Below are positions 4,979-20,702 of a DNA stretch of 64,000 nt, piece after piece (the stretch's first letter is position 1; every line of letters begins with the position of its first letter). Under the pieces are notes generated by a model, which worked only from the letters and a program-made list of their open reading frames with translations, ran no database searches and had not been told where the DNA came from. Location of the stretch: positions 20,365-84,364 of the forward strand of contig JAIXSO010000059.1 in the NCBI GenBank assembly GCA_027484685.1, in the 5' to 3' direction. This DNA is from Bacteroidota bacterium. Lineage in GTDB: Bacteria > Bacteroidota > Bacteroidia > UKL13-3. The position numbers and the translations under genes were made by a program.

Positions 4979-7399
4979 TTAAAACTTAAAGTTATAAGTA
5001 AAAGCAGGAATAGGTACTGCAAATAATGAGAATTGAACCAATTCTGTAATAGCTGGTGATTTATCATTAACCCTTGGATATACTGCAAATGCATTACGTC
5101 TTCCAAGTAAGTTATAAATACCAAATACTATTTCCCATTCATAAGTATATTTCATTCGTTTTAAAAAATTAGTAGGCATAATTTCTGGTTGTTTGCGCTC
5201 TTTACTTTTTACAGTGGCAGTTAAATCTACTCTAAAAAAATCAGGAATTCGAATATTATTTCTAGGTGCATTTGGATTATGAGGCACTTGGTATCCTTCA
5301 AATGCAAATTTGTTGGTTGGTAAATTTACTGGTGTTCCACTTCCATATACCACATTGGTATTAAGTGTCCAGCGTTTATTCAAATCATAACTTACTACTA
5401 AATTTAAATTATGTAATTTATCAAAACGGGTAGGATACCAGTCATTATTATTAATTCTATCAACTTGGCGTTCAGTTCTAGCCAAAGTGTAGCTAATAAA
5501 ACCTGTTAGTTTACCAGTATTTTTCTTTACAAAAAACTCTAAACCATAAGCACGGCCCTTGCCACTTAATATTTGACCCTCAATAAATGGATTCAACAAT
5601 AAATCAGCTCCATCAATATAGTCAATTTGGTTCTGCATATCCTTATAATACGCTTCCACCGATGTTTCGTAATCGTTTTTAGTGTTACCAAAGTTTTTAA
5701 AATATCCTATTGCTACTTGGTCGGCTATTTGAGGTTTAATATTATTGGTACTTGGTGTCCATACATCTAAAGGAATAGATGCTGCTGTATTCGAAATTAA
5801 ATGAACGTATTGGCTGGTGCGCATATAACTTGCCTTTAAACTGCTTGTAGAGTTTAATTCATATTTTACAGCTGCTCTTGGCTCCAGGTTAAAGTAGTTT
5901 TGCATCGATTCAAAGTCATCATATTTTTCAATTCCAGTTAATACTTTTCCAAACGAGTTAAATTCATTGCTGTAAATTTGTTTTTCGCCATTACCCAAAT
6001 AATGAAAAGTTGAAAAGCGTAATCCATAACTTACCGATAACCTAGCGTTAATAGTTTGGTCGTTAGACGCATACAGCGCGTTTTCTAATGAATATTTATA
6101 AGGCAAATTAATATCCTGACGAACTCCACCACTTACAAAACTTGCATTAGCAGGATTGAATTGGTAAAAAATGCTTTGACCACCAACATTGATAGTGTTT
6201 TTACTGTTTAAATACCAAGTAAAATCTTGTTTTAAACTGTAGTTAATAATGCGCGAAGTCCATTTAAAAGCATCTCTTGCACCTAAGTTATCAGTGCCAA
6301 TTCCATAATCGTAATTACTGTAAAATGCAGTGGTATTGCTAAATAATTTGCTTTTTATTTCATGGTTCCAACGTGCAGTCAATGTTTGATTTCCCCAATT
6401 AAATCCAAAAGTTGATACCCCAAAAACATCACGTCCCATATAACCCGAAAGGAAAACTTTATCTTTTTTACCCAAACTATAATTGGCTTTAACAGTTAAG
6501 TCGTAAAAATATAATTGAAGGCCATTAAAATCGGCATTTCCAGCTAAAAATGGCGCTGCTAATACATCACCATAACTTCTTCTTCCAGCAATAATGTATG
6601 AACCTTTACCTTTTTTTATTGGTCCTTCTAATGTTAAACGCGAAAAAATTAAACCAATTCCACCTTGTGCTGCAAAATGTTTTTTGTTTCCATCTTTTAA
6701 CCTCACATCTAAAATGGATGATAACCTTCCCCCATATTTAGCATTGATACCACCTTTAAATAGTTTTACATCTTTTACGGCATCAGGGTTAAATACCGAA
6801 AAGAAACCAAACAAATGCGATGAATTATAAACCGGGGCTTCATCTAATAAAATTAAATTTTGGTCAATGCTTCCCCCGCGCACATTAAAACCTGAGGCTC
6901 CTTCGCCTACAGTACTTACGCCCGGCAAAAGTTGTATACTTCTTACTAAATCTACCTCGCCTAAAAGTGCTGGAATTTTACTAATGGCTTTCATGTCTAA
7001 CTTATTGGTCGACATTTCAGTAGTTTTAATATTTTCGTTTTTCTTTTCACCAGTTACATTTACTGCCTTCAGTTCTTTGTTTTGAGGAACTAATTCAAAA
7101 TTTAATTTAAGATTATTAGTTAAACTTACTGCTTGAATATTAGTAACATAACCAATATATTTTACTGAAATATTATAATTTCCGGCAGGTAATGTAATTG
7201 AATAATAACCGTATTCGTTGGTTAAGGCTCCTTTACCTGTTTCTTTTACAATTACAGATACGCCAATTAGGTCTTCACCAGTTTTGCTATCGCGAACATA
7301 GCCACTCAGCACTACTTTGTCTTTTTGCTGGGCAAAGGAAGTAACGCTTGAAAATAGAATAATAGAATAAATCAAAAATGATTTTAGGGTAAATTTCAT
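4979..7399 (-). CDS. TonB-dependent receptor with carboxypeptidase-regulatory-like domain
   Basis: 806 residues. Signal peptide at about 1-23. An N-terminal carboxypeptidase-regulatory-like beta-sandwich follows (about 27-110; SGYVRDSKTGEDLIGVSV). The plug comes next (about 140-240; FNVRGGSIDQNLILLDEAPV and the KYGGRLSSILDV end), then an outer-membrane barrel to the C-terminal aromatic strand FTYNFKF. It is the first gene of a two-gene operon with the DUF4249 lipoprotein. It should import a ligand across the outer membrane using TonB energy; the sequence does not reveal the ligand. Confidence 0.92.
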   Translation of the reverse strand: MKFTLKSFLIYSIILFSSVTSFAQQKDKVVLSGYVRDSKTGEDLIGVSVIVKETGKGALTNEYGYYSITLPAGNYNISVKYIGYVTNIQAVSLTNNLKLNFELVPQNKELKAVNVTGEKKNENIKTTEMSTNKLDMKAISKIPALLGEVDLVRSIQLLPGVSTVGEGASGFNVRGGSIDQNLILLDEAPVYNSSHLFGFFSVFNPDAVKDVKLFKGGINAKYGGRLSSILDVRLKDGNKKHFAAQGGIGLIFSRLTLEGPIKKGKGSYIIAGRRSYGDVLAAPFLAGNADFNGLQLYFYDLTVKANYSLGKKDKVFLSGYMGRDVFGVSTFGFNWGNQTLTARWNHEIKSKLFSNTTAFYSNYDYGIGTDNLGARDAFKWTSRIINYSLKQDFTWYLNSKNTINVGGQSIFYQFNPANASFVSGGVRQDINLPYKYSLENALYASNDQTINARLSVSYGLRFSTFHYLGNGEKQIYSNEFNSFGKVLTGIEKYDDFESMQNYFNLEPRAAVKYELNSTSSLKASYMRTSQYVHLISNTAASIPLDVWTPSTNNIKPQIADQVAIGYFKNFGNTKNDYETSVEAYYKDMQNQIDYIDGADLLLNPFIEGQILSGKGRAYGLEFFVKKNTGKLTGFISYTLARTERQVDRINNNDWYPTRFDKLHNLNLVVSYDLNKRWTLNTNVVYGSGTPVNLPTNKFAFEGYQVPHNPNAPRNNIRIPDFFRVDLTATVKSKERKQPEIMPTNFLKRMKYTYEWEIVFGIYNLLGRRNAFAVYPRVNDKSPAITELVQFSLFAVPIPAFTYNFKF

Positions 7400-10043: not shown

Positions 10044-10934
10044 ATGAGAAAGTTAGTAGTAGTAATGGCAGCATTAGCCATGTTTGGAGTGAGTAGTTGT
10101 GGTAAAAAAATGCAAACAACTGAAAATGGAATTAATTACAGAATTATTCAAAGTTCTGACACTGCGCGTTTAATAACTAAAGGCGATTTGATGATGATTC
10201 AAATGATTGGTTTAGGTCAATTAGCTGATTCGTTAGGTGGAAAAGATACAACCATTTTTGATTCATATAAAGTTGGAAAAGCATATTATATACCTGCTGA
10301 TGAAACTACTTTAAAAGATGTGTTTATGATGTTACATAAAGGCGATAGTGCTGAATTTGAGGTAAGTGCAGATACATTATTTATGAAAAGTTTTGGTCAG
10401 TTAACGCCTGGTTTCTTAAAGAAAAATAGTAATATTCACTTTTATGTAAAGGTGGAAAATATTTATAGCCAAAGCGAATTAGAGGTTATGAAAGCCGAAG
10501 AAAGAGCAAAATCTATTATGAAAGATTCAGTAGAAGCTGCTGCTTATATTGCTAATTTAACCAATGTGCAAACTACCACAAGTGGTTTAAAATATGTAAT
10601 TACTAAACCTTCAAAAGGTGCGCAACCTAAAGCTGGCCAAGAAGTGAGTATGCTTTACAGAGGTTTATTATTGAACGGTACAAAATTTGACGAAAACCAA
10701 GACGAGGCAAATCCATTTAAATTTACTGTTGGTATGCGTCAAGTAATTCCAGGTTGGGATGAAGGTGTAATGTTATTGCACGAAGGTGAAGAGGCTAAAT
10801 TTATTATACCTGCTCGCTTAGCTTATGGCGAACAAGGTGGTGGGCCAATTCCTCCAAACTCAACCTTGATTTTTGACGTAAAGTTATTGAAAATTAATAC
10901 AGCCCCTAAGACACCAACTGCAAAAGGAAATTAA
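10044..10934 (+). CDS. FKBP-type peptidyl-prolyl isomerase, lipoprotein
   Basis: 296 residues. Lipoprotein signal peptide with VSSC (Cys19). The C-terminal part (about 190-285) is a complete FKBP domain: YRGLLLNGTKFDEN, VIPGWDEG, AYGEQGGGPIPPNSTL. The N-terminal part (about 30-150) keeps an FKBP-like order of motifs (GDLMMIQMIG, IFDS, LHKGDSAEFEV, FYVKV) but lacks the catalytic WDEG and AYG residues, so I read it as a degenerate FKBP domain. The family catalyses proline isomerisation during folding; lipid anchoring places it in the periplasm or at the surface. First of four FKBP genes in a row. Confidence 0.88.
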   Translation: MRKLVVVMAALAMFGVSSCGKKMQTTENGINYRIIQSSDTARLITKGDLMMIQMIGLGQLADSLGGKDTTIFDSYKVGKAYYIPADETTLKDVFMMLHKGDSAEFEVSADTLFMKSFGQLTPGFLKKNSNIHFYVKVENIYSQSELEVMKAEERAKSIMKDSVEAAAYIANLTNVQTTTSGLKYVITKPSKGAQPKAGQEVSMLYRGLLLNGTKFDENQDEANPFKFTVGMRQVIPGWDEGVMLLHEGEEAKFIIPARLAYGEQGGGPIPPNSTLIFDVKLLKINTAPKTPTAKGN

Positions 10935-10935
10935 G

Positions 10936-11820
10936 ATGCAAAAGGTTGTTTCAATATTAATTCTATGTTTTTTTGTAGTAAGTAGCGTATTTTCTCAAAA
11001 AGGGAAATCGGTAGCCACTAACACCTTTACTAAACTAAGTAAAGGTGTTAGTTATAAAATAGTTACTACTGGGCCCAATAATAAAAAACTAAAATTGAAT
11101 GATTTGCTGTTGATTAATTTATTGGGAATAGGCAAAACAACCAATGGGAAAGATACGGTAGTGTTCAATACTTATGGTAGTGGAAAGCCATTTTATATTC
11201 CTGTTACAGAGCCCACATTTACCGAAGTTTTTTTGAAGTTATATAAAAACGACAGTGCTATTTTAAATATCAATGCTGACTCTCTTTTTACAAACAGTTT
11301 TGGACAACCTGCTCCAGATTTTTTAGCTAAAAATAGCATTATTAAATTTAATTTAAAAGTAGTAGAAGTTTTTGATGAAAAAGAAGTTGAAGAATTAAGA
11401 GAATCTGAGCGAGCTAAGACAGTTGCAAAAGATTCAATAGAAATAAATGCGCTTTTGGCTAAATATAAAGACATAAAAACAACTGCTTCTGGTTTAAAAT
11501 ATATTATTACTAAACCAACTACTGGCAAAATTCCTCAAAAAGGTGATGAAGTTGAAATGAATTATACTGGAATGTTTGCAGACGGGAAAAAATTTGATGA
11601 GAATTTAAATATAGCAAATCCATTTAGTTTTAAATTAGGATTAGGACAAGTTATAGCTGGTTGGGATGAAGCAATTATGTTACTTCACGAGGGTGAAGAA
11701 GCAAAGCTAATAATTCCTTCTAACTTAGGTTATGGCGAGCAAGGAGCAGGCCCAATTCCACCAAATGCTTCACTGGTTTTTGATGTAAAATTATTGAAAA
11801 TTAAATCTAACACTAAATAA
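10936..11820 (+). CDS. FKBP-type peptidyl-prolyl isomerase, exported
   Basis: 294 residues. Signal peptide at 1-20 (ending VFSQ) and no lipobox, so it is probably soluble in the periplasm. The architecture matches the preceding gene: a degenerate N-terminal FKBP-like half (NDLLLINLLGIG, LYKNDSAILNI) and an intact C-terminal FKBP domain (NYTGMFADGKKFDEN, VIAGWDEA, GYGEQGAGPIPPNASL). It starts one base after the previous stop and its last base is the first base of the next start, so translation is probably coupled. It is a paralogue from tandem duplication. Confidence 0.88.
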   Translation: MQKVVSILILCFFVVSSVFSQKGKSVATNTFTKLSKGVSYKIVTTGPNNKKLKLNDLLLINLLGIGKTTNGKDTVVFNTYGSGKPFYIPVTEPTFTEVFLKLYKNDSAILNINADSLFTNSFGQPAPDFLAKNSIIKFNLKVVEVFDEKEVEELRESERAKTVAKDSIEINALLAKYKDIKTTASGLKYIITKPTTGKIPQKGDEVEMNYTGMFADGKKFDENLNIANPFSFKLGLGQVIAGWDEAIMLLHEGEEAKLIIPSNLGYGEQGAGPIPPNASLVFDVKLLKIKSNTK

Positions 11821-12671
11821 TGAAAAAATCGGCTATCATCATTGCTTTATTAATTTTTTCCATCAAAATCCATAGTCAAACTTGGATTAAGACAGATGGT
11901 GGTACAGTATTTAAGTACATTACCAAAAACGAAAAAGGCCGTAAAATTAGACCAAACATGATTATGTTGGTTGATTTATTAGGCAAAGTACAAAAGGCAG
12001 GTAATATAGCTGAAGACACAGTAATTTTTAACAGTGGTACAAGCGATAAACCTTTTTATATTCCTACCGAACAGCCTGGCCTTCAAAATGTGTTTTATAA
12101 TTTAAATACTGGCGATAGTATTGAAATAAAAATAATTGCAGATACATTTTATAACAAAGTATTTGCAGCAAATCTGCCTGATTTTGTGGCAAAAGGTAGT
12201 ATAGTAACACTTTATTTTCATGTTCAAGAAGCTTTAACTAAAGAAGAAATTGAGGATAGGGTAAAAATTCAAAACACCAAAGCTGTTAAGTCTGACTCCT
12301 TAAATGTATTGAAATACTGTAATAAAATAAAAGGTGTAAAAAAGTTGGCAAGTGGATTGCGCTATAAACCTTTAAAGTTAAATCCAACAGGTACCTTAGC
12401 AAAAAAGGGTTCAATGGTTTCGGTTAGGTACAAAGGTTGGCTTATAGATGGTGATGTATTTGACGAAAATGAAACTGGTGAGCCATTTAAATTAGTGTTA
12501 GGAATGAACCAAGTAATTAAAGGTTGGGAAGAAGGGCTTAAACTAATGAAAACCGGAGAAAAATATAGGCTTATAATACCTTGGTATTTAGCTTATGGAA
12601 CTTTGGGCAATGGCCCAATACCTCCTTTTACCAGCATTGTTTTTGATGTGCAATTAATTGAAATTAAGTAA
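11820..12671 (+). CDS. FKBP-type peptidyl-prolyl isomerase, exported, third paralogue
   Basis: 283 residues. Signal peptide ends KIHSQ. An N-terminal FKBP-like half (PNMIMLVDLLGKV, LNTGDSIEIKI) precedes a C-terminal FKBP domain (RYKGWLIDGDVFDEN, VIKGWEEG, AYGTLGNGPIPPFTSI). The C-terminal domain is more diverged than in its neighbours: IPWYLAYG replaces the usual IPxxLAYG and PPFTS replaces PPNAS. The active-site tryptophan and tyrosine remain, so catalysis is plausible. Its start overlaps the previous stop by one base. Confidence 0.85.
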   Translation: MKKSAIIIALLIFSIKIHSQTWIKTDGGTVFKYITKNEKGRKIRPNMIMLVDLLGKVQKAGNIAEDTVIFNSGTSDKPFYIPTEQPGLQNVFYNLNTGDSIEIKIIADTFYNKVFAANLPDFVAKGSIVTLYFHVQEALTKEEIEDRVKIQNTKAVKSDSLNVLKYCNKIKGVKKLASGLRYKPLKLNPTGTLAKKGSMVSVRYKGWLIDGDVFDENETGEPFKLVLGMNQVIKGWEEGLKLMKTGEKYRLIIPWYLAYGTLGNGPIPPFTSIVFDVQLIEIK

Positions 12672-12685
12672 TATACTAAAATAAT

Positions 12686-13567
12686 ATGAAAAAAAGTACC
12701 GCAACATTATTATTGGTTTTATCTTCTTCGTTTTTGTTTGCACAGCAAGCAAAAGGTGGCAAAAAACAAGCTAAAACCAAAGCAAAAACAACTCCAATAG
12801 CAACAATAAAGAAAGTAGAAAATAAGATGGATTCTAATGAAACAGTAACCGCAAGCGGTTTAAAAGTTAAAATTACGGAACACGGAATTGGTCGTCAGGT
12901 ACAAAAAGGCGATAAAGTAACAGCTCATTATACTGGTTTACTAACCGATGGTAAAAAGTTTGATAGCTCAAAAGATAGAAATCAACCGTTTTCGTTTAAA
13001 GTTGGCGTTGGACAAGTAATAGCTGGTTGGGATGAAGGTTTTCAGTTATTAAAGGTGGGTGATAAAGCAACTTTTACCATTCCTCCACAAATAGCTTACG
13101 GTGCTTCTGGTGCTGGTGGGGGAGTAATACCGCCAAATGCTACTTTGGTTTTTGATGTAGAAGTTATTGATGCTGTTGAAGCTCCTAAACCTCGTCCTGC
13201 AGTTCCTTACGATGTTACAGGATTAGATACTGTAAAAATGCAAAGTGGTTTGCGTTTTGTAAAAGTAGAGTCGGGTAATGGTGTAAAGGCTCAACAAGGT
13301 AAATATGTTTCGGTACACTATACCGGCTATTTAATGGATGGCAAAAAATTCGATTCATCAGTAGAACGTGGTGAGCCAATTGAGTTTCAATTAGGTAGAG
13401 GCATGGTTATTAAAGGTTGGGAAGAAGGAATAGAGCTAATGCATGTTGGCGATAAAATGCGTTTTATTATTCCTAGCGAATTGGCTTATGGCGAAAATGG
13501 AGCTCCTGGAGCTATTCCTCCAAATGCTACTTTAATTTTTGATTGCGAATTAGTAGATGTACAATAA
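12686..13567 (+). CDS. Tandem two-domain FKBP peptidyl-prolyl isomerase, exported
   Basis: 293 residues. Signal peptide ends LFAQ, then a Lys-rich linker (about 21-45). Two complete FKBP domains follow: about 56-163 (HYTGLLTDGKKFDSS, VIAGWDEG, AYGASGAGGGVIPPNATL) and about 183-293 (HYTGYLMDGKKFDSS, VIKGWEEG, AYGENGAPGAIPPNATL). Both keep the catalytic aspartate, tryptophan and tyrosine, unlike the N-terminal halves of the three upstream paralogues. It is the last gene of the run, 14 bases after the previous stop, and a strong terminator follows. Confidence 0.92.
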   Translation: MKKSTATLLLVLSSSFLFAQQAKGGKKQAKTKAKTTPIATIKKVENKMDSNETVTASGLKVKITEHGIGRQVQKGDKVTAHYTGLLTDGKKFDSSKDRNQPFSFKVGVGQVIAGWDEGFQLLKVGDKATFTIPPQIAYGASGAGGGVIPPNATLVFDVEVIDAVEAPKPRPAVPYDVTGLDTVKMQSGLRFVKVESGNGVKAQQGKYVSVHYTGYLMDGKKFDSSVERGEPIEFQLGRGMVIKGWEEGIELMHVGDKMRFIIPSELAYGENGAPGAIPPNATLIFDCELVDVQ

Positions 13568-13592: not shown

Positions 13593-13626
13593 AAAAGTCG
13601 GCCAATGTAAATTGGCCGACTTTTTT
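13593..13626 (+). terminator. Rho-independent terminator of the FKBP operon
   Basis: AAAGTCGGCCAAT pairs with ATTGGCCGACTTT around the loop GTAA, followed by six T. The stem is G+C-rich for this genome. Confidence 0.92.
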
Positions 13627-13629
13627 GTT

Positions 13630-13684
13630 GTTAACCTTATGGTAACATTGTGGTAATTTATACATAACCTGAAGGTAACATTCT
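13630..13684 (+). promoter_or_regulatory. Array of five 11-bp direct repeats, Pho-box-like operator
   Basis: Five contiguous 11-mers: GTTAACCTTAT (13630), GGTAACATTGT (13641), GGTAATTTATA (13652), CATAACCTGAA (13663) and GGTAACATTCT (13674). Each has a conserved 7-base core (nnTAACM-like) and a 4-base variable spacer. Sixteen bases later comes a -7-like TTCCTTTG (13701-13708). Direct repeats on an 11-bp period are how PhoB/SphR-type OmpR-family regulators bind. Assignment to phosphate control is inference. A matching array precedes the next gene. Confidence 0.65.
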
Positions 13685-13728
13685 GTTTAAAAGGTAATAG
13701 TTCCTTTGCGGCAGGTTAATTTTAGAAA

Positions 13729-16596
13729 ATGAATAGATTATTTAAACATGCACTCGTGTTTGCTTTTATTATTACAAGCATATCATTTGTGTCGGCCCAA
13801 ACGGGCAAAATTTCTGGTAAAGTACAAGATAAAAATACCGGGGAAGCCATTATTTCAGCAGTAGTTAGCATTCCTGCATTAAGTTTATCAACTACTACCG
13901 ATTTTGAAGGAAAATACATTTTGCAAAACGTAAAAGCGGGAACCTATACATTAACAGTATCTTATGTTAATTACATAAAAAAAGAAATTCCTAATGTAGT
14001 TGTAGAAGCTAAAGAAACTGAGGTTATTAATGTTTCGCTTGAGGAAAAAGAAAGTTTAAAAGCTATTACTATTAAAGGCAAAGTTAAAAGAGAAAGCGCA
14101 AACGAAGTTTTAATTCAACAGAAGGCAGCCATCGCGGTATCAAGTGGGGTATCGGCTGAGGCAATTAGAAAAACACCAGATAGAACTACCGCTGATGTTA
14201 TTAAACGTGTAAGTGGTGCTAGTATTCAAGATGGAAAGTTTGCCATTGTTCGCGGTTTAGGCGATAGATACAATATGGGCTTTATAAATGGAGCTCCATT
14301 ACCTAGCTCTGAAAGCGATAGAAAAGCATTTAGTTTAGATATTATTCCAGCAGCAGTATTGGATAATATGATGATTACCAAAACTGCTACACCTGATATG
14401 CCAGGTGATTTTGCAGGAGGTTTTATTCAAATAAATACCAAAGATATTCCAGACGAAAACAATACTTCAGTTCAATTAGGATTAGGTACACATTCACTAA
14501 CTACTTTTCAAAATACCAACCGTGTTGGTGGTGGTTCAACCGATTTTTTAGGTTTTGATAACGGCAATAGAGCTATTCCTGCTGGATTTCCTGGAACTGA
14601 TGCTTCAAAAGCAATAACCGATAATGCTAAATTAGCTAATTATACCAAAGGTTTTAACAATAATTTTGCGCCAGAAAATGTAAGTTTTACACGTCCTAAT
14701 TTTAACTTACAGGCTAATAGCAGCCGTAGATGGAAAATTGGTAAAAACGATTTTGGTGTAGTAGGAGCATTAACTTATAGTAATTCATTGCGTTATATGC
14801 CATTTACTATTAGAAATGTGGACGGTGCTAACACTATTAATGAACTTGCTGACAATGCCAAATATGATGGCTCAACACTAGATTATAATAACTATAGAAA
14901 TACAGTAAACTTAGGTGGTATTTTAAATTTTAGTTATAAAATAGGTAAAAATACAAAGTTGGTATTTAAAAACTTAATTACCCAAACGGGCGATGATCAA
15001 ACCATTACTAGAACTGGAAGCTCAATTAAAGGTGTTAACGATCCAATTGAATCGCAAGTAGAGCGTAAGTTTCAACATTATATTTACCAATACCAACAAA
15101 GCAGAATGATTAGTTCTCAGTTCGGTGGAGATCATTTTTTTACAGGGTCTAAAATAAAAGTGAACTACACATTAGGCTATAATAATTTAAATAAGCAAAT
15201 GCCTGATTTTAAACGTTTGTTTTATCAAGCAGATAGAAATGTATCTACTGAGTTTGGTGCAACTGAAGCTCAAATTACGGATAACGCTAGTGCTTTTTCG
15301 GTAGCGAATAGTGGTAGATTTGTTTCTAATTTATCAGAAAATAGTTTCAATGCCAATTATAGTGCAACCATTCCATTTAAATTTTTACCAAAAGTATTTG
15401 CTCGTAACGAGTTAAAAGTGGGTGGAATGAATATGTATAGAACACGCGATTTTAAGGCCAGAAACTTTATATATACATTTAATGGAAATGTGTTTGATAG
15501 AAATATTTTACAGAGCGATGTCAGCACATTGTTCAACAATATAGGCGAAAATGGAATTTTTCAAAAAGAAACAACTCAAAAGTTTGATTCGTATGATGCA
15601 AATTCAACCTTACATGCAGGCTTTATTATGTTAAATCAAAAATTAAGTAATTTAAGATTGATTTATGGTGTTAGAGTTGAAAGCTTTAATCAAAAGGTAA
15701 ATTCGTTTGATAACAGTGGTAATCCAGTAAATGTTAATAGCACGGTTGTTGATTTTTTACCTTCATTAAATGCAATTTATGAAATTACTAATAAACAAAA
15801 TTTACGTTTAGGTTATGCTAAAACTGTTTCGCGACCTGAATTTAGAGAGTTTGCTCCATTGGCCTTTTTTGAGGTAAACTATAACGGGGTAGTAACAGGC
15901 AATCCAAACTTGGTTAGAGCAACCATTGACAATTTAGATTTGAAATGGGAAATGTTCCCATCAGCTGGTCAAACCTTTTCAGTAAATCCATTTTATAAAA
16001 GATTTACCAATCCAGTGGAGTTAATTGCGAATCCTGCCTTGGATGGTGCTTTACAATTTACTTATGGTAATGCGGCCGAAGCATATAATTATGGTGTGGA
16101 GTTAGAAGCAAGAGTTACTTTGAGTACTTTTACTAAAAACAAAGCAGGTATATTAAATAGATTTACCTTGTATTCTAATTTTAGCTTTATTCAGTCAGAA
16201 GTTAACGTGGGTGCAATGGGCGGAGCTGTAACTAACAGACCTTTACAAGGACAGTCTCCTTATGTATTCAATGCTGGGGTTAACTATAGCAATCCTAAAA
16301 AATTCTTTGATATTACTTTAAATGCCAATAGAGTAGGAAGACGTATTGCATTTGTGGGTACTCAAGATAATTTTACTATTTGGGAAAACCCAAGAACAAT
16401 ATTAGATGCAAGTATTTCAAAAACATTTAAAAAGAAATTGATAGCTAAATTAACCATGGGCGATTTGTTAGCTCAAAACTTAGTTTTCTATCAAGATTTA
16501 AATAAAAACGGTAACTATGATGAAGGTAAAGATATTGCTACTTTCAACTACCGATTTGGGTTCACAACTTCATTTTCATTAACCTATAATTTTTAG
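13729..16596 (+). CDS. TonB-dependent receptor, likely co-regulated with the following T9SS protein
   Basis: 955 residues. Signal peptide about 1-23 (ending VSA). A carboxypeptidase-regulatory-like domain follows (about 27-107; SGKVQDKNTGEAIISAVVSI). The plug (about 125-240) has TTADVIKRVSGASI and FAIVRGLGDRYN, then the GDFAGGFIQINTKD end. A large barrel runs to SFSLTYNF. The plug belongs to the large receptor type that lists TPDMPGDFAGG after the plug core. A Pho-box-like array lies 45 bases upstream of its start, and an equivalent array lies before the next gene, so the two probably respond to one signal while using separate promoters, since a terminator separates them. The ligand is unknown. 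Confidence 0.92.
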   Translation: MNRLFKHALVFAFIITSISFVSAQTGKISGKVQDKNTGEAIISAVVSIPALSLSTTTDFEGKYILQNVKAGTYTLTVSYVNYIKKEIPNVVVEAKETEVINVSLEEKESLKAITIKGKVKRESANEVLIQQKAAIAVSSGVSAEAIRKTPDRTTADVIKRVSGASIQDGKFAIVRGLGDRYNMGFINGAPLPSSESDRKAFSLDIIPAAVLDNMMITKTATPDMPGDFAGGFIQINTKDIPDENNTSVQLGLGTHSLTTFQNTNRVGGGSTDFLGFDNGNRAIPAGFPGTDASKAITDNAKLANYTKGFNNNFAPENVSFTRPNFNLQANSSRRWKIGKNDFGVVGALTYSNSLRYMPFTIRNVDGANTINELADNAKYDGSTLDYNNYRNTVNLGGILNFSYKIGKNTKLVFKNLITQTGDDQTITRTGSSIKGVNDPIESQVERKFQHYIYQYQQSRMISSQFGGDHFFTGSKIKVNYTLGYNNLNKQMPDFKRLFYQADRNVSTEFGATEAQITDNASAFSVANSGRFVSNLSENSFNANYSATIPFKFLPKVFARNELKVGGMNMYRTRDFKARNFIYTFNGNVFDRNILQSDVSTLFNNIGENGIFQKETTQKFDSYDANSTLHAGFIMLNQKLSNLRLIYGVRVESFNQKVNSFDNSGNPVNVNSTVVDFLPSLNAIYEITNKQNLRLGYAKTVSRPEFREFAPLAFFEVNYNGVVTGNPNLVRATIDNLDLKWEMFPSAGQTFSVNPFYKRFTNPVELIANPALDGALQFTYGNAAEAYNYGVELEARVTLSTFTKNKAGILNRFTLYSNFSFIQSEVNVGAMGGAVTNRPLQGQSPYVFNAGVNYSNPKKFFDITLNANRVGRRIAFVGTQDNFTIWENPRTILDASISKTFKKKLIAKLTMGDLLAQNLVFYQDLNKNGNYDEGKDIATFNYRFGFTTSFSLTYNF

Positions 16597-16631
16597 TTGT
16601 TTTTGTATTCAAAAAAATGGCTATTTAAACT

Positions 16632-16662
16632 AAACCCTGTAAGAAGTTGCAGGGTTTTTTTA
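16632..16662 (+). terminator. Rho-independent terminator
   Basis: AAACCCTG pairs with CAGGGTTT, followed by further T. It lies between the TonB receptor and the T9SS protein, so the latter needs its own promoter. Confidence 0.85.
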
Positions 16663-16676
16663 TGCTCAAATGTGTA

Positions 16677-16731
16677 GTTAACATTTAAGTAATACTACAT
16701 TTACCTAAGCATAACCTTGAAGTAACATACA
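16677..16731 (+). promoter_or_regulatory. Second array of five 11-bp direct repeats, Pho-box-like operator
   Basis: Five contiguous 11-mers: GTTAACATTTA (16677), AGTAATACTAC (16688), ATTTACCTAAG (16699), CATAACCTTGA (16710) and AGTAACATACA (16721). The -7 element TACTTTCG lies at 16748-16755, exactly 16 bases after the array, as in the first array. The fourth and fifth units are nearly the same as those at 13663 and 13674. Confidence 0.65.
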
Positions 16732-16775
16732 CGCAACAACGGCAATCTACTTTCGCGGATATTTATTTTATAAAA

Positions 16776-19700
16776 ATGAAAACAAAGATTTCCTTATTAA
16801 TTCTAGCTGTAATGATTTACAGCAATGGTTTTGCCCAGTTTTTCGATTCAGTTCCATTTCGTGGAGCTTTTGGAGTAAACGGAACTACTAAGAATATTTC
16901 ATCAGGGTATAATCCTGATCCAACTAACACTTCGGCCGATTGGAGTAAACCTTGGGCTAATTGGACCCCAAATGCTACTGCATATCCAGGTGATGCTGGC
17001 TACAACTCAAGTAACCCTCAGTTTTTTACAGTAGGAACCGCTGCCGAAAAAGTAGTATTAAGTGGCGATATTGCTTCTGACTTAACTTTATCGAGCAGCA
17101 AATGGTACGAAATTAGTGGAACAATCCACGTTTTAAATGGAGCTACTTTAACCATTCCCGCTGGAACTTGTTTACGCGGAAGTACAACAAATATTGGTGT
17201 TTTAATTATTGCCAAAGGTGGTAAATTAAACGCTGTTGGTACCAAAGATCATCCAATTGTAATTACCTCAGGTAAAGCTGCTGGTTCACGTATTCGTGCC
17301 GATTGGGGTGGATTATTATTAATTGGTAATGCTCATACCAATACTCCAGGTGGAGCTCGTCAATACGAAGCTTTACCTTCTGATCCATTAGCTAATTATG
17401 GTGGAGGTTTAAATCCTAACGATGCAGATAACAGTGGTACAATGCGTTACATGCGCATTGAGTTTGCTGGTTTTAACTACTTACCAGATCAAGAAATTAA
17501 CGGGATTACCTTTGCAGGAGTTGGTAGTGGTACTAAAGCCGATTATTTAATGGTTAGTTTTTCAAACGATGATAACTTTGAATGGTTTGGTGGTGCCGTA
17601 AATCATAAATACCTTATCTCTTTTGCAAGTACTGATGATGAGTTTGATATGGATGAAGGTTACAATGGAAAATGTCAATATTTATTAGGTGTGCGTAATC
17701 CTGCTGTTTTTGAAACTTCACCAACTGGAACATCAAATGGTTTAGAACATGATAATAATACAGGTTTAGGTACTTCTGGTGTTATTAATCCAAATACGCC
17801 AACTCCAACCCCAACTACTGCTCCTGTTATTTCTAATATGACTTTGGTTGGACCAATTAAAGCAGGTTCAAACAGAACAACTTTATCAACTACTGCAAAT
17901 TCACGTTTTGGTAGAGCTTTAGAGTATAGAACAAATGTTTCTACATCGGTATTTAATTCAGTAATTTGGGGTTACCCAACATTATTCCAATTAGGAAACC
18001 CAACAGGTACTTTCCCTGCTAGTACTCAAACAAGAGCTTTTGATGATCAATTATCGTTAAGAAATTCAACATTTATTTCAACTGCTACAGGCAGTGATGT
18101 AAGATTTAACAGTCAAAATGCACCAACTTATAATAGTGTAAGTTTAAATACTTCATGGATGCGTAATTGGTTAATTAACGGCCCAACTGTAGGTTTTACT
18201 GGTGCTACCGATAATGATACAGTAAGAACTACTTTAACAGTAGGTACTGAATTTACAAACCCAATTTATGCTGGTACTACTAACGGTGCTTTAAATCAAT
18301 TAGATTTTTCAGGTGTTGACTATACTTTAGCAGTTGGAAGTCCATTTGCCAATGCATCTAATTTTAGTCATCCAAAAATTTCGGTAGTTCCAACTCCAAG
18401 TGTTGCTATTACTGCCTCTAGCTTGGCTCCATTTAATATCATTTTAGGTCAACCTTTGCAAGTAAAATGGATTGTTTTAACTGCAAGTGCTTTAGCTGGT
18501 AATGTAAATATTACTGCACCAACTAATTTTGAAATCTCATGGAGCAGAACTACTGGTTGGGCTGCTAATATCTCTAAAAATGGTCCTGCTGTTAATGATA
18601 CAATATTTGTACGTTTTAATAGAACCTCTACTGGTTCTAACAATGGTTTCTTAAACGTTTCTTCAACTGTTTCAGCTGATTTTAGCCCATTAAATATTGC
18701 ATTAAACGGAACTGCTGTAGCACCTGCTGCAGCTTATGTAAATATAACTGAAAGTGGATTAAGTTTTAACAACGCTGTTGGTGCTCCAACTACTGCTATG
18801 TTTAGCATTTTAGGTAAAAACTTAGTTGATACAGTAGCTTTGGTAGCTCCTACTAATTTTGAAATTTCGTTAAATGCTACTTCGGGTTTTGCTCAAACTT
18901 TAACTTTAAACAACCCTGTTAAACCTTCTTTTGCATCTACTTTGGTTTATGTAAGGTACAATCCTACAACTGCTTCTGCATCACACAGCGGTAATTTAGT
19001 TGTATCATCTAAAACTATTGATGCTATCAATATAACTTTAGCTGGAAATTCAGCTGCTACTTTAACTTCATCACCAGCTCAGTTAACTGAAATTGCTACT
19101 ATTGTTGGAACTCCATCATTGGCTTATGCTATTTCATTATCAGGTGTTAAATTAAGCGATACTGTAAAAGTGGTTGCTCCTGCTGGTTTCCAATTATCAA
19201 TTGATTCAGTATTTACAACTCCAGTTACTTCATTAAACTTAAATATTCCTACTGCTGCGGTATTGGCTAATACCAAAGTTTATGTACGCTATAATCCATC
19301 ATCCGCTGGTACTGCAACAGGTAATGTTTCAATTTCGAGCACAGGTGCTACCACTAGAAACGTGGTTGTAACAGGCAGAGCTTTAGCTGCTAATGCAAAA
19401 GCGGTTTTTGCTTATTCGTCAGCTTTTTCATTAGTATTTACTACTATTTTTACCACTCCTGCTGTTCCGTCAGCTTCTCAAGCTATAACTGTAAGTGGTA
19501 TAAACTTAGGAACTGATTCATTGGTTGTAACTGCTCCTTCAAGCTTTGAAGTTTCATTAGATAATTCAAACTATGTTTCGGTAATTAAATTAGGAAATAT
19601 TGGCGGAATAGTTGCTCCTACAACGGTTTATGTGCGTTACAATCCAGTTGTTCAATCGGCACAAAACCAACAGTTATATGTTCACTTATCGTCTGCTAAT

Positions 19701-20702
19701 CCATCAACTACTTCAAGTGCAACAAATGTTGTAATGTTTGTAAACGGAAATTCATCTCCATCAATTACAGTTAATTCATCGGTTGAGCCAACATTATACA
19801 CTACTTTTGGTAAACCATCGGTTGCTTCATCGGTAATAGTTAATGGAACTCGTTTGGTTGACAATGTAATTGCAACTGCTCCTACTGGTTTCGAATTATC
19901 TTTAGATTCAGTTAACTTTACTACTTCGGTAACTATTAATAAAACAGGTACTACTTTAGCTAATACTACAGTTTATATTCGCTTTAACCCTAGTGTAGCT
20001 GGTGCTTCTGCTCCTAATAGTTTTGTTTCGTTCAATACAGTGAATGGTGCTGCTGTTCCAGTTGCAGTTTCAGGTATAGCAGTTGTTCCTGCTACTCCAA
20101 TTGTTTCATTATCTACTGCTACTTTACCAATGTTTACTACTAACGGTGTGGTTCCAACTGCTCCAGTTTCATTTACATTCAACGCACAAAACTTAGTAGC
20201 TGATTTAGCTATAACAGTTGGTAACGATTTTGAACTTTCAAACGATTCAGTAACTTATAAAAACACTTGGAATATTACTCCTGATGTAGATGGTAATATT
20301 GGAACTACTAAATTATTCTGTCGCTTTAAACGCGCTACTACTGGTTCGGTAAGCGATAGTATTAAATTTAACAGTACTAACTTAGTTGAACAAGCAATTG
20401 CTTTAACTGGTAAAAATACTACTGGTGTAGTTGAAGTAAATGCAGTTTCTGCTTTAAAATTATATCCAAATCCTGCTAGCAGCCAAGTTGCAGTTGAGTT
20501 TGAATTAAACGAAAATAGCCAAGTAACTATTGCTATAGTTGATTTGAGTGGTAAAATAGTTGGAACCACAGTTTCTAACCAATTTAATAAAGGTTTTAAC
20601 AGTGTAGAAATTCCTACTAGCGATTTATTAAATGGTTTCTATTTTGTAAACATTGTTTCAGAAAAAGGAGCTAAAACTGCTAAACTTTCAGTTATTAAAT
20701 AA
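16776..20702 (+). CDS. Large T9SS-secreted surface protein with six repeated beta-domains
   Basis: 1308 residues. Signal peptide ends NGFAQ. The N-terminal 530 residues look like a beta-helix or beta-solenoid (ISGTIHVLNGATLTIPAG, IIAKGGKLNAVGTKDHP, RADWGGLLLIGNA, NSGTMRYMRIEFAG), a family common beside TonB receptors in Bacteroidota. Six repeats of roughly 100 residues follow (about 540-1210), each with the signature AP-x-x-FE(L/I)S and a later VYVRYNP or variant. A T9SS type A sorting domain ends the protein (about 1222-1308, LKLYPNPASSQVAVEF). With the 11-bp array it probably forms a unit with the preceding receptor, perhaps binding or processing its ligand at the surface. Confidence 0.85.
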   Translation: MKTKISLLILAVMIYSNGFAQFFDSVPFRGAFGVNGTTKNISSGYNPDPTNTSADWSKPWANWTPNATAYPGDAGYNSSNPQFFTVGTAAEKVVLSGDIASDLTLSSSKWYEISGTIHVLNGATLTIPAGTCLRGSTTNIGVLIIAKGGKLNAVGTKDHPIVITSGKAAGSRIRADWGGLLLIGNAHTNTPGGARQYEALPSDPLANYGGGLNPNDADNSGTMRYMRIEFAGFNYLPDQEINGITFAGVGSGTKADYLMVSFSNDDNFEWFGGAVNHKYLISFASTDDEFDMDEGYNGKCQYLLGVRNPAVFETSPTGTSNGLEHDNNTGLGTSGVINPNTPTPTPTTAPVISNMTLVGPIKAGSNRTTLSTTANSRFGRALEYRTNVSTSVFNSVIWGYPTLFQLGNPTGTFPASTQTRAFDDQLSLRNSTFISTATGSDVRFNSQNAPTYNSVSLNTSWMRNWLINGPTVGFTGATDNDTVRTTLTVGTEFTNPIYAGTTNGALNQLDFSGVDYTLAVGSPFANASNFSHPKISVVPTPSVAITASSLAPFNIILGQPLQVKWIVLTASALAGNVNITAPTNFEISWSRTTGWAANISKNGPAVNDTIFVRFNRTSTGSNNGFLNVSSTVSADFSPLNIALNGTAVAPAAAYVNITESGLSFNNAVGAPTTAMFSILGKNLVDTVALVAPTNFEISLNATSGFAQTLTLNNPVKPSFASTLVYVRYNPTTASASHSGNLVVSSKTIDAINITLAGNSAATLTSSPAQLTEIATIVGTPSLAYAISLSGVKLSDTVKVVAPAGFQLSIDSVFTTPVTSLNLNIPTAAVLANTKVYVRYNPSSAGTATGNVSISSTGATTRNVVVTGRALAANAKAVFAYSSAFSLVFTTIFTTPAVPSASQAITVSGINLGTDSLVVTAPSSFEVSLDNSNYVSVIKLGNIGGIVAPTTVYVRYNPVVQSAQNQQLYVHLSSANPSTTSSATNVVMFVNGNSSPSITVNSSVEPTLYTTFGKPSVASSVIVNGTRLVDNVIATAPTGFELSLDSVNFTTSVTINKTGTTLANTTVYIRFNPSVAGASAPNSFVSFNTVNGAAVPVAVSGIAVVPATPIVSLSTATLPMFTTNGVVPTAPVSFTFNAQNLVADLAITVGNDFELSNDSVTYKNTWNITPDVDGNIGTTKLFCRFKRATTGSVSDSIKFNSTNLVEQAIALTGKNTTGVVEVNAVSALKLYPNPASSQVAVEFELNENSQVTIAIVDLSGKIVGTTVSNQFNKGFNSVEIPTSDLLNGFYFVNIVSEKGAKTAKLSVIK

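Follow-up and report, generated by a model that had tools for sequence, protein, structure and literature searches.

Two repeat arrays upstream of a receptor gene and a surface-protein gene

The DNA analysed here (the window) is a stretch of 64,000 nucleotides from a Bacteroidota bacterium (G000:C17:20365-84364, where G000 denotes this genome). It carries two arrays of 11-bp direct repeats, one ahead of a gene for a TonB-dependent receptor and one ahead of the adjoining gene for a surface protein with a sorting tail of the type IX secretion system (T9SS). The features of this locus are as follows.

13593..13624, + strand: terminator-like hairpin, directly 5' of array 1
13630..13684, + strand: array 1, five direct 11-bp repeats with TAAC-type cores, predicted PhoB sites
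13701..13708, + strand: -7-like element TTCCTTTG, starting 16 bp past array 1; phase kept in relatives
13729..16596, + strand: TonB-dependent receptor, 955 aa, with CarbopepD_reg, Plug and beta-barrel domains
16632..16657, + strand: terminator-like hairpin between the receptor and surface-protein genes
16677..16731, + strand: array 2, five direct 11-bp repeats, predicted PhoB sites
16748..16755, + strand: -7-like element TACTTTCG, starting 16 bp past array 2
16776..20702, + strand: surface protein with T9SS sorting tail, 1308 aa; approximately residues 84-488 modelled as a right-handed beta-helix

The units of array 1 are GTTAACCTTAT GGTAACATTGT GGTAATTTATA CATAACCTGAA GGTAACATTCT and those of array 2 are GTTAACATTTA AGTAATACTAC ATTTACCTAAG CATAACCTTGA AGTAACATACA, contiguous and in register in both cases, and the repeat unit of the Bacteroidota box is approximately NTTAACATTNN. 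A preliminary description of this DNA had placed five 11-mers in each array, and their coordinates, register and contiguity were all verified. The 16-base spacing that it gave between array and -7-like element was exact at both arrays, which, as in a PHO box, hold at least two tandem direct repeats with an 11-bp period and occupy a fixed helical position relative to the core promoter. The terminator that it had proposed between the two genes was also found, as a hairpin, so that each gene is likely to have its own promoter, the two being of one design.

Homologues of the receptor (E ≤ 1e-40) were found in 34 of the 40 genomes searched, this one included. The arrangement of a beta-helix exoprotein adjoining a TonB receptor, as for ElpS and FI-FIII, is present in the pair in the window. 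At E ≤ 0.01, sequence searches of the PDB returned nothing related to the surface protein, and no Flavobacterium johnsoniae anchor was seen; a scan of viral contigs found no relative. Nearly all of the 120 surface-protein homologues among the matches listed (P0002-P0121) contained Pfam PF28492.

Both arrays were far above chance. When scored with a matrix of 62 units taken only from receptor promoters of other genomes, arrays 1 and 2 reached 34.6 and 34.4, compared with 8.2 for the best non-overlapping place in the window; with the same receptor-trained matrix, 60 windows simulated under a first-order Markov model gave a mean maximum score of 6.9 and a highest score of 16.6. Array 1 also had the highest 11-base self-similarity of the window when no motif was used (65-66 matches; mean 30.8, sd 5.6).

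Conservation and phase upstream of receptor homologues

The upstream regions of receptor homologues were compared in two sets of loci. In the first set of relatives, 59 of 74 TAAC words, in 22 of 30 upstream regions, lay in one phase of eleven relative to the best TAnnTTTG, an anchor chosen without regard to the array and visibly wrong at some of the retained loci (e.g. L023). The eight excluded loci were this genome's own and its nearest kin (L004-L005), near-duplicates (L012-L015), and L026 and L028, in whose upstream regions no array was visible. In the second set, of 80 named loci, 125 of 183 TAAC cores were in one phase of eleven relative to the -7 element; this count covers 78 loci, two having been excluded for absent upstream DNA, and at least four of the named records (L160, L161, L164 and L169) share contigs with the first set, three of these genomes having given training sequences. 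As most of the cores in both sets fell in one phase, the phase was kept and not just the sequence, as expected if protein molecules are stacked along one side of the helix. The box that should lie upstream of orthologues according to the preliminary description was present there, mostly in one phase to the -7 element in both sets.

The arrays at receptor promoters varied, some having six units and some fewer. Some arrays ended 5 bp rather than 16 bp before the -7 element, that is, one unit nearer and still in phase. When the array units of this genome were compared with those of G003, the closest relative by receptor identity (92% identical), 1 of 60 sites differed within positions 1-6, against 13 of 50 within positions 7-11.

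The box upstream of phosphate genes

Short copies of the repeat were present ahead of two phosphate-related genes of the same genome, one for uptake and one for regulation. At the PhoB-like gene (G000:C3:19056-19736, L255), CTTAACAATTA ACTAACAATAA TCTAAT stands immediately 5' of TAAGTTTG (matrix score 14.1), and at the PiT gene (G000:C12:54421-55707, L134), ATTTACAATTA CTTAACATTGC stands 18 bp before TACTTTCG (matrix score 15.7). An OprP-type porin gene lies downstream of the PiT gene on the same strand. The PhoB-like protein has a receiver and a winged-helix domain (PF00072 and PF00486) and is 76% identical to P0001 of G010; a single match was found per genome at E ≤ 1e-50 in the 24 f1 genomes searched. 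A PhoR-like kinase (G000:C10:60044-61054) is 50% identical to that of L183. A search for PhoX at E ≤ 1e-15 gave no match in this genome, and none of its PstS candidates passed the family cut-off. The best PstS candidate of the genome by PF12849 / TIGR02136, at C2, was below the TIGR02136 cut-off and without a box, and was rejected.

The promoters of phosphate genes in this genome and its relatives were scored with the receptor-trained matrix against a control of 625 promoters (95% level 9.3, 99% level 17.1). The PiT, OprP and PhoB places had been collected without reference to the box, through family or protein searches. The PiT set consisted of 21 of 30 loci (41 places), with eight of another PiT type and one with an unresolved start excluded, and the PhoB set of 30 of 46 places, those with loci. 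The 95% control level was exceeded by 20/21 PiT promoters and 24/30 PhoB-like promoters, the two of this genome among them, and by 7/8 OprP/PstS promoters, the last hand-picked from 12 OprP loci and from 6 PstS loci over the cut-off, as well as by 69/79 receptor and 51/68 beta-helix gene promoters. The boxes at PiT and PhoB-like genes mostly had two or three units, and the gaps between box and -7 element at PiT genes varied from 16 to 18 bp (counted by eye).

A sequence-only model of 12 arrays (R1) was also run over this genome and 39 relatives, and 77 matches were obtained at E ≤ 0.1. As at most 118 candidates per genome, out of up to 7934, were scored, weak matches may be missing. Of these matches, 20 lay before the receptor or a homologue and 14 at a surface-protein promoter, while five preceded PiT genes, two OprP-type porin genes and two PhoB-like genes, and one was near a PhoB-like gene. 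Position gave no assignment for the remaining 33; the 23 of these that were inspected included matches at a beta-helix homologue (L082), ahead of a pstB-like frame (L103) and at a kup-like gene (L083). The names kup, pstB-like and others without family-search backing were given by eye. Six R1-derived sites lay inside open frames.

The L083 match (G025:C110:8660-8712) has two good units, TTAACATTGG and TTAACATTAG, ahead of a gene resembling kup-type potassium transporters, and was the best-scoring array match without a visible phosphate link. Another array match (G017:C3:24292-24343, L105) lies ahead of a gene for an uncharacterised secreted protein, near and divergent from a PhoX-family gene (G017:C3:22566-23702). 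On three contigs of relatives, a receptor gene is within about 20 kb of phosphate genes: PiT, OprP and PstS on G028:C156, PiT on G031:C115 and a pstB-like frame on G014:C10.

Gene neighbourhoods in relatives

The 877 open reading frames of the 80 named loci were clustered without prior choice, and the commonest neighbours of the receptor were a beta-helix surface protein (64/80 loci) and a group of response regulators and kinases (24/80). In 23 of the 80 loci, a PhoB-like gene was found at most 10 kb from the receptor, with ≥54% identity to P0001 in 22 of these loci and 46% in the remaining one (L174). As many loci end before 10 kb, this number is a lower bound. In 13 of the 23 loci the PhoB-like gene is divergent from the receptor gene and adjoins it, so both genes use one intergenic region.

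The gene order in L183 is glycosyltransferase, PhoR-like, PhoB-like, receptor, beta-helix protein, further regulators, a frame without a Pfam match, PBP_like_2 and two permease subunits. A receptor and exoprotein beside phoBR, the PUSIV-type arrangement, is thus found in relatives such as L183 and L214 (in which the glycosyltransferase is PF04101), and is absent from the window, where the pair is on C17 and phoB on C3. One record, L211 (CP034120.1), is a complete genome titled Glaciecola amylolytica, but its receptor, beta-helix gene and several neighbours are like those of L201 and L189 (titled Fluviicola), and the name looks doubtful.

Comparison with known systems

The principle of the PHO box is already known. 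The Escherichia coli box, of CTGTCAT type, has two 11-nt units (PMC4415409), and the cyanobacterial SphR box has at least three 8-bp repeats with a 3-bp linker, CTTAACCT (PMC1906773). The present arrays resemble these boxes in their 11-bp direct repeats close upstream of the promoter and ahead of phosphate transport genes, and the TTAAC core is near that of the cyanobacterial box. They differ in the unit, here approximately NTTAACATTNN, in having five to six units at many receptors, and in the core promoter element that they precede by 16 bp (or by 5 bp, which keeps the phase), here a TAnnTTTG -7 rather than a sigma-70 -10 element. No definition of a Pho box for the Bacteroidota, with its consensus, long arrays and -7 phase, was found among the open PMC articles listed by the searches, apart from a partly overlapping motif in Riemerella.

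This motif belongs to PhoP of Riemerella anatipestifer, a Bacteroidota response regulator which is reported to be up-regulated in phosphate starvation, has TTTAACA as its most conserved letters in DNA affinity purification sequencing, and shifts a TonB-receptor promoter in gels (PMC9603813). It is described as ArcA-like and is tied to virulence and aerotolerance. No 11-bp array, -7 phase or phosphate-gene box is described in the available part of that article.

F. johnsoniae was compared through its published gene order and expression; 95 of its genes are reported to be induced at low phosphate. In its PUSIV cluster (Fjoh_0541-0546), the order of glycosyltransferase (pf04101), PhoR, PhoB, TonB receptor and exoprotein FII is that of L214 and L183, and within Fjoh_0541 and 0543-0546 the receptor, FII and PhoB were reported to be up-regulated on phosphate depletion, with printed fold changes of 8.02, 9.91 and 3.06 (PMC8115612, Table 1). 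The window differs in that the pair stands alone, with phoB elsewhere, and in that its exoprotein has a T9SS tail whereas the F. johnsoniae proteins are called lipoproteins. The F. johnsoniae cluster also includes OprP (0542), for which no counterpart was seen at the corresponding position of L214 or L183. The terms 'pho box', 'promoter' and 'motif' do not occur in the main text of PMC8115612.

A comparable pair is found in Caulobacter crescentus, in which the exoprotein ElpS is made under phosphate starvation and adjoins the TonB receptor CC0171; according to the source, the two co-occur across genomes and cc0170 is conserved in Bacteroides species (PMC2996285). ElpS differs in being a lipoprotein secreted by the type II secretion system and in that cc0171 was reported to be constitutive.

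Interpretation and alternative explanations

As short copies of the repeat precede the PiT and PhoB-like genes of the same genome, the arrays are predicted to be PhoB binding sites. Most probably they are Pho boxes of a Bacteroidota type, bound by PhoB and driving the receptor and the beta-helix exoprotein for phosphorus scavenging. This assignment, made from sequence, agrees with the Pho-box equivalent proposed in the preliminary description, and is supported by the conservation of the box upstream of orthologues and its presence ahead of this genome's PhoB-like and PiT genes and of phosphate genes in relatives.

Under this interpretation, phosphorylated PhoB would bind repeats of approximately NTTAACATTNN head to tail when phosphate is low. 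Given the 11-bp period and the conserved phase to the -7 element, the PhoB molecules may stack on one face of the DNA, with the last one next to the polymerase, where it would replace the normal -33 contact. The regulator is likely to be the single PhoB-like protein encoded on C3, whose own promoter has a box, and its partner may be the PhoR-like kinase encoded on C10. From their two promoters, the receptor gene and that of the T9SS-secreted beta-helix protein would be switched on jointly, along with PiT, which has a box, and the OprP-type porin gene downstream of PiT. By their likeness to F. johnsoniae FII and Caulobacter ElpS, the pair might capture phosphate or organophosphate at the cell surface and import it; import of organophosphate in particular is speculative. 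A response graded by the number of units is suggested, again speculatively, by the contrast between the long arrays at the pair and the two or three units found at phoB and PiT.

Several results weigh against this interpretation. The expectation that the motif would precede phosphate genes held for PiT, OprP, pstS and phoB-like genes and failed for PhoX, as the box was mostly absent from the PhoX promoters of relatives (1/7 above the 95% level, from 7 of 11 loci; other alkaline phosphatase families were not searched). Promoters below the 95% level included 6/30 of those of PhoB-like genes, 10/79 of receptors and 17/68 of beta-helix genes, and the 99% level was reached by only 3/21 PiT and 2/30 PhoB-like boxes. 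As the PiT and PhoB boxes are short and mostly under the 99% level, an individual box is weak evidence and the argument depends on the sets as a whole. Because of the relatedness of the sequences, the counts do not represent independent events, and the P values of the promoter sets overstate independence. All 18 R1 matches below 1e-9 were at receptor or surface-protein promoters, 12 of them being the training sequences and six their near-duplicates. A loose-pattern scan of this genome gave 47 matches compared with 65 for a reversed-pattern control, and a second loose pattern gave 205 compared with 230. As the phoB and PiT boxes had served as templates for the second pattern, its two exact matches at these genes are circular; no third exact copy was found in this genome. 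Loose patterns are thus without signal; only long arrays or conserved places are informative. In this genome the pair (C17), phoB (C3), the PhoR-like gene (C10) and PiT (C12) are spread over four contigs. The top NCBIfam names of P0001 are both PhoB, but its scores were below the cut-offs (TIGR02154, 229.4 bits, cut-off 296.2; NF053854, 217.7, cut-off 270) and the regulator is for this reason called PhoB-like and not a family member; the PhoR-like kinases of L180 and L214 were also below the cut-offs. Few units were recognisable at loci labelled Flavobacterium (L214, L216), although induction has been measured in that genus, and no significant induction of OprP (-1.3) or PhoR (0.76) was reported for F. 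johnsoniae (PMC8115612).

Tandem repeats of about 11 bp are usual at sites of the OmpR family in general. The arrays might then be bound by another regulator of this family, ArcA- or KdpE-like, that responds to redox, potassium or envelope state, with phosphate genes being only some of its targets. The array match ahead of the kup-type-like gene would fit such a regulator, as would the Riemerella PhoP motif, whose similarity to the E. coli ArcA motif was considered high, and the link drawn between that regulator and membrane proteins, aerotolerance and virulence (PMC9603813). This explanation is nevertheless improbable, in view of the boxes at PiT, OprP, PstS and phoB-like promoters, the resemblance to PhoB of the regulator beside the receptor in 23/80 loci, and the F. 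johnsoniae data, which link such a gene order to phosphate. Alternatively, the array might simply be a dedicated operator of the pair, serving a local substrate-sensing regulator without a link to phosphate status. Strong arrays in this genome were indeed found only at the pair, the next R1 matches having E values of 0.037 and 0.06, but the same unit stands at a similar distance from a -7-like element before its phoB and PiT genes and in most of the relatives scored, and the regulator gene beside the pair in relatives is PhoB-like; a dedicated operator is thus very unlikely. Neutral tandem duplication, or chance repeats in A+T-rich DNA, would be favoured by the A+T-rich composition of the window and by the motif-free self-similarity of array 2, which at 55 was high but below the window's top. 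Arrays were, however, kept at about 40% receptor identity, and a neutral origin, scarcely credible on these grounds, was judged to be refuted by the phase of the TAAC cores in the named relatives and by substitutions against G003 that avoid the cores.

A wider proposal builds on the Pho-box interpretation and is offered tentatively. The box may be common to the phylum Bacteroidota, with the number of units ordering the response (phoB and PiT having two or three units and the receptor and beta-helix genes having five or six); PhoB might stack on a sigma-ABfr-type promoter and replace the -33 element, and the pair could be a TonB-driven outer-membrane importer of phosphorus, shared in principle with ElpS/CC0171 of Caulobacter. 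Bacteroidota are important in soil and aquatic phosphorus cycling. With unit, period and phase known, candidate Pho regulons could be listed from sequence alone in many metagenome-assembled genomes, and the box would flag which orphan TonB receptors are likely to import phosphorus and not glycan or iron.

Neighbouring genes in the window

Four consecutive genes for FKBP-type prolyl isomerases (10044-13567) lie directly upstream of the receptor gene, and the last of these also matches the BamJ model above its cut-off (151 versus 100 bits). Further upstream, at 4979-7399 on the minus strand, an 806-aa frame has a match to the SusC/RagA model that covers no more than its N-terminal fifth (model positions 3-191 of 981).

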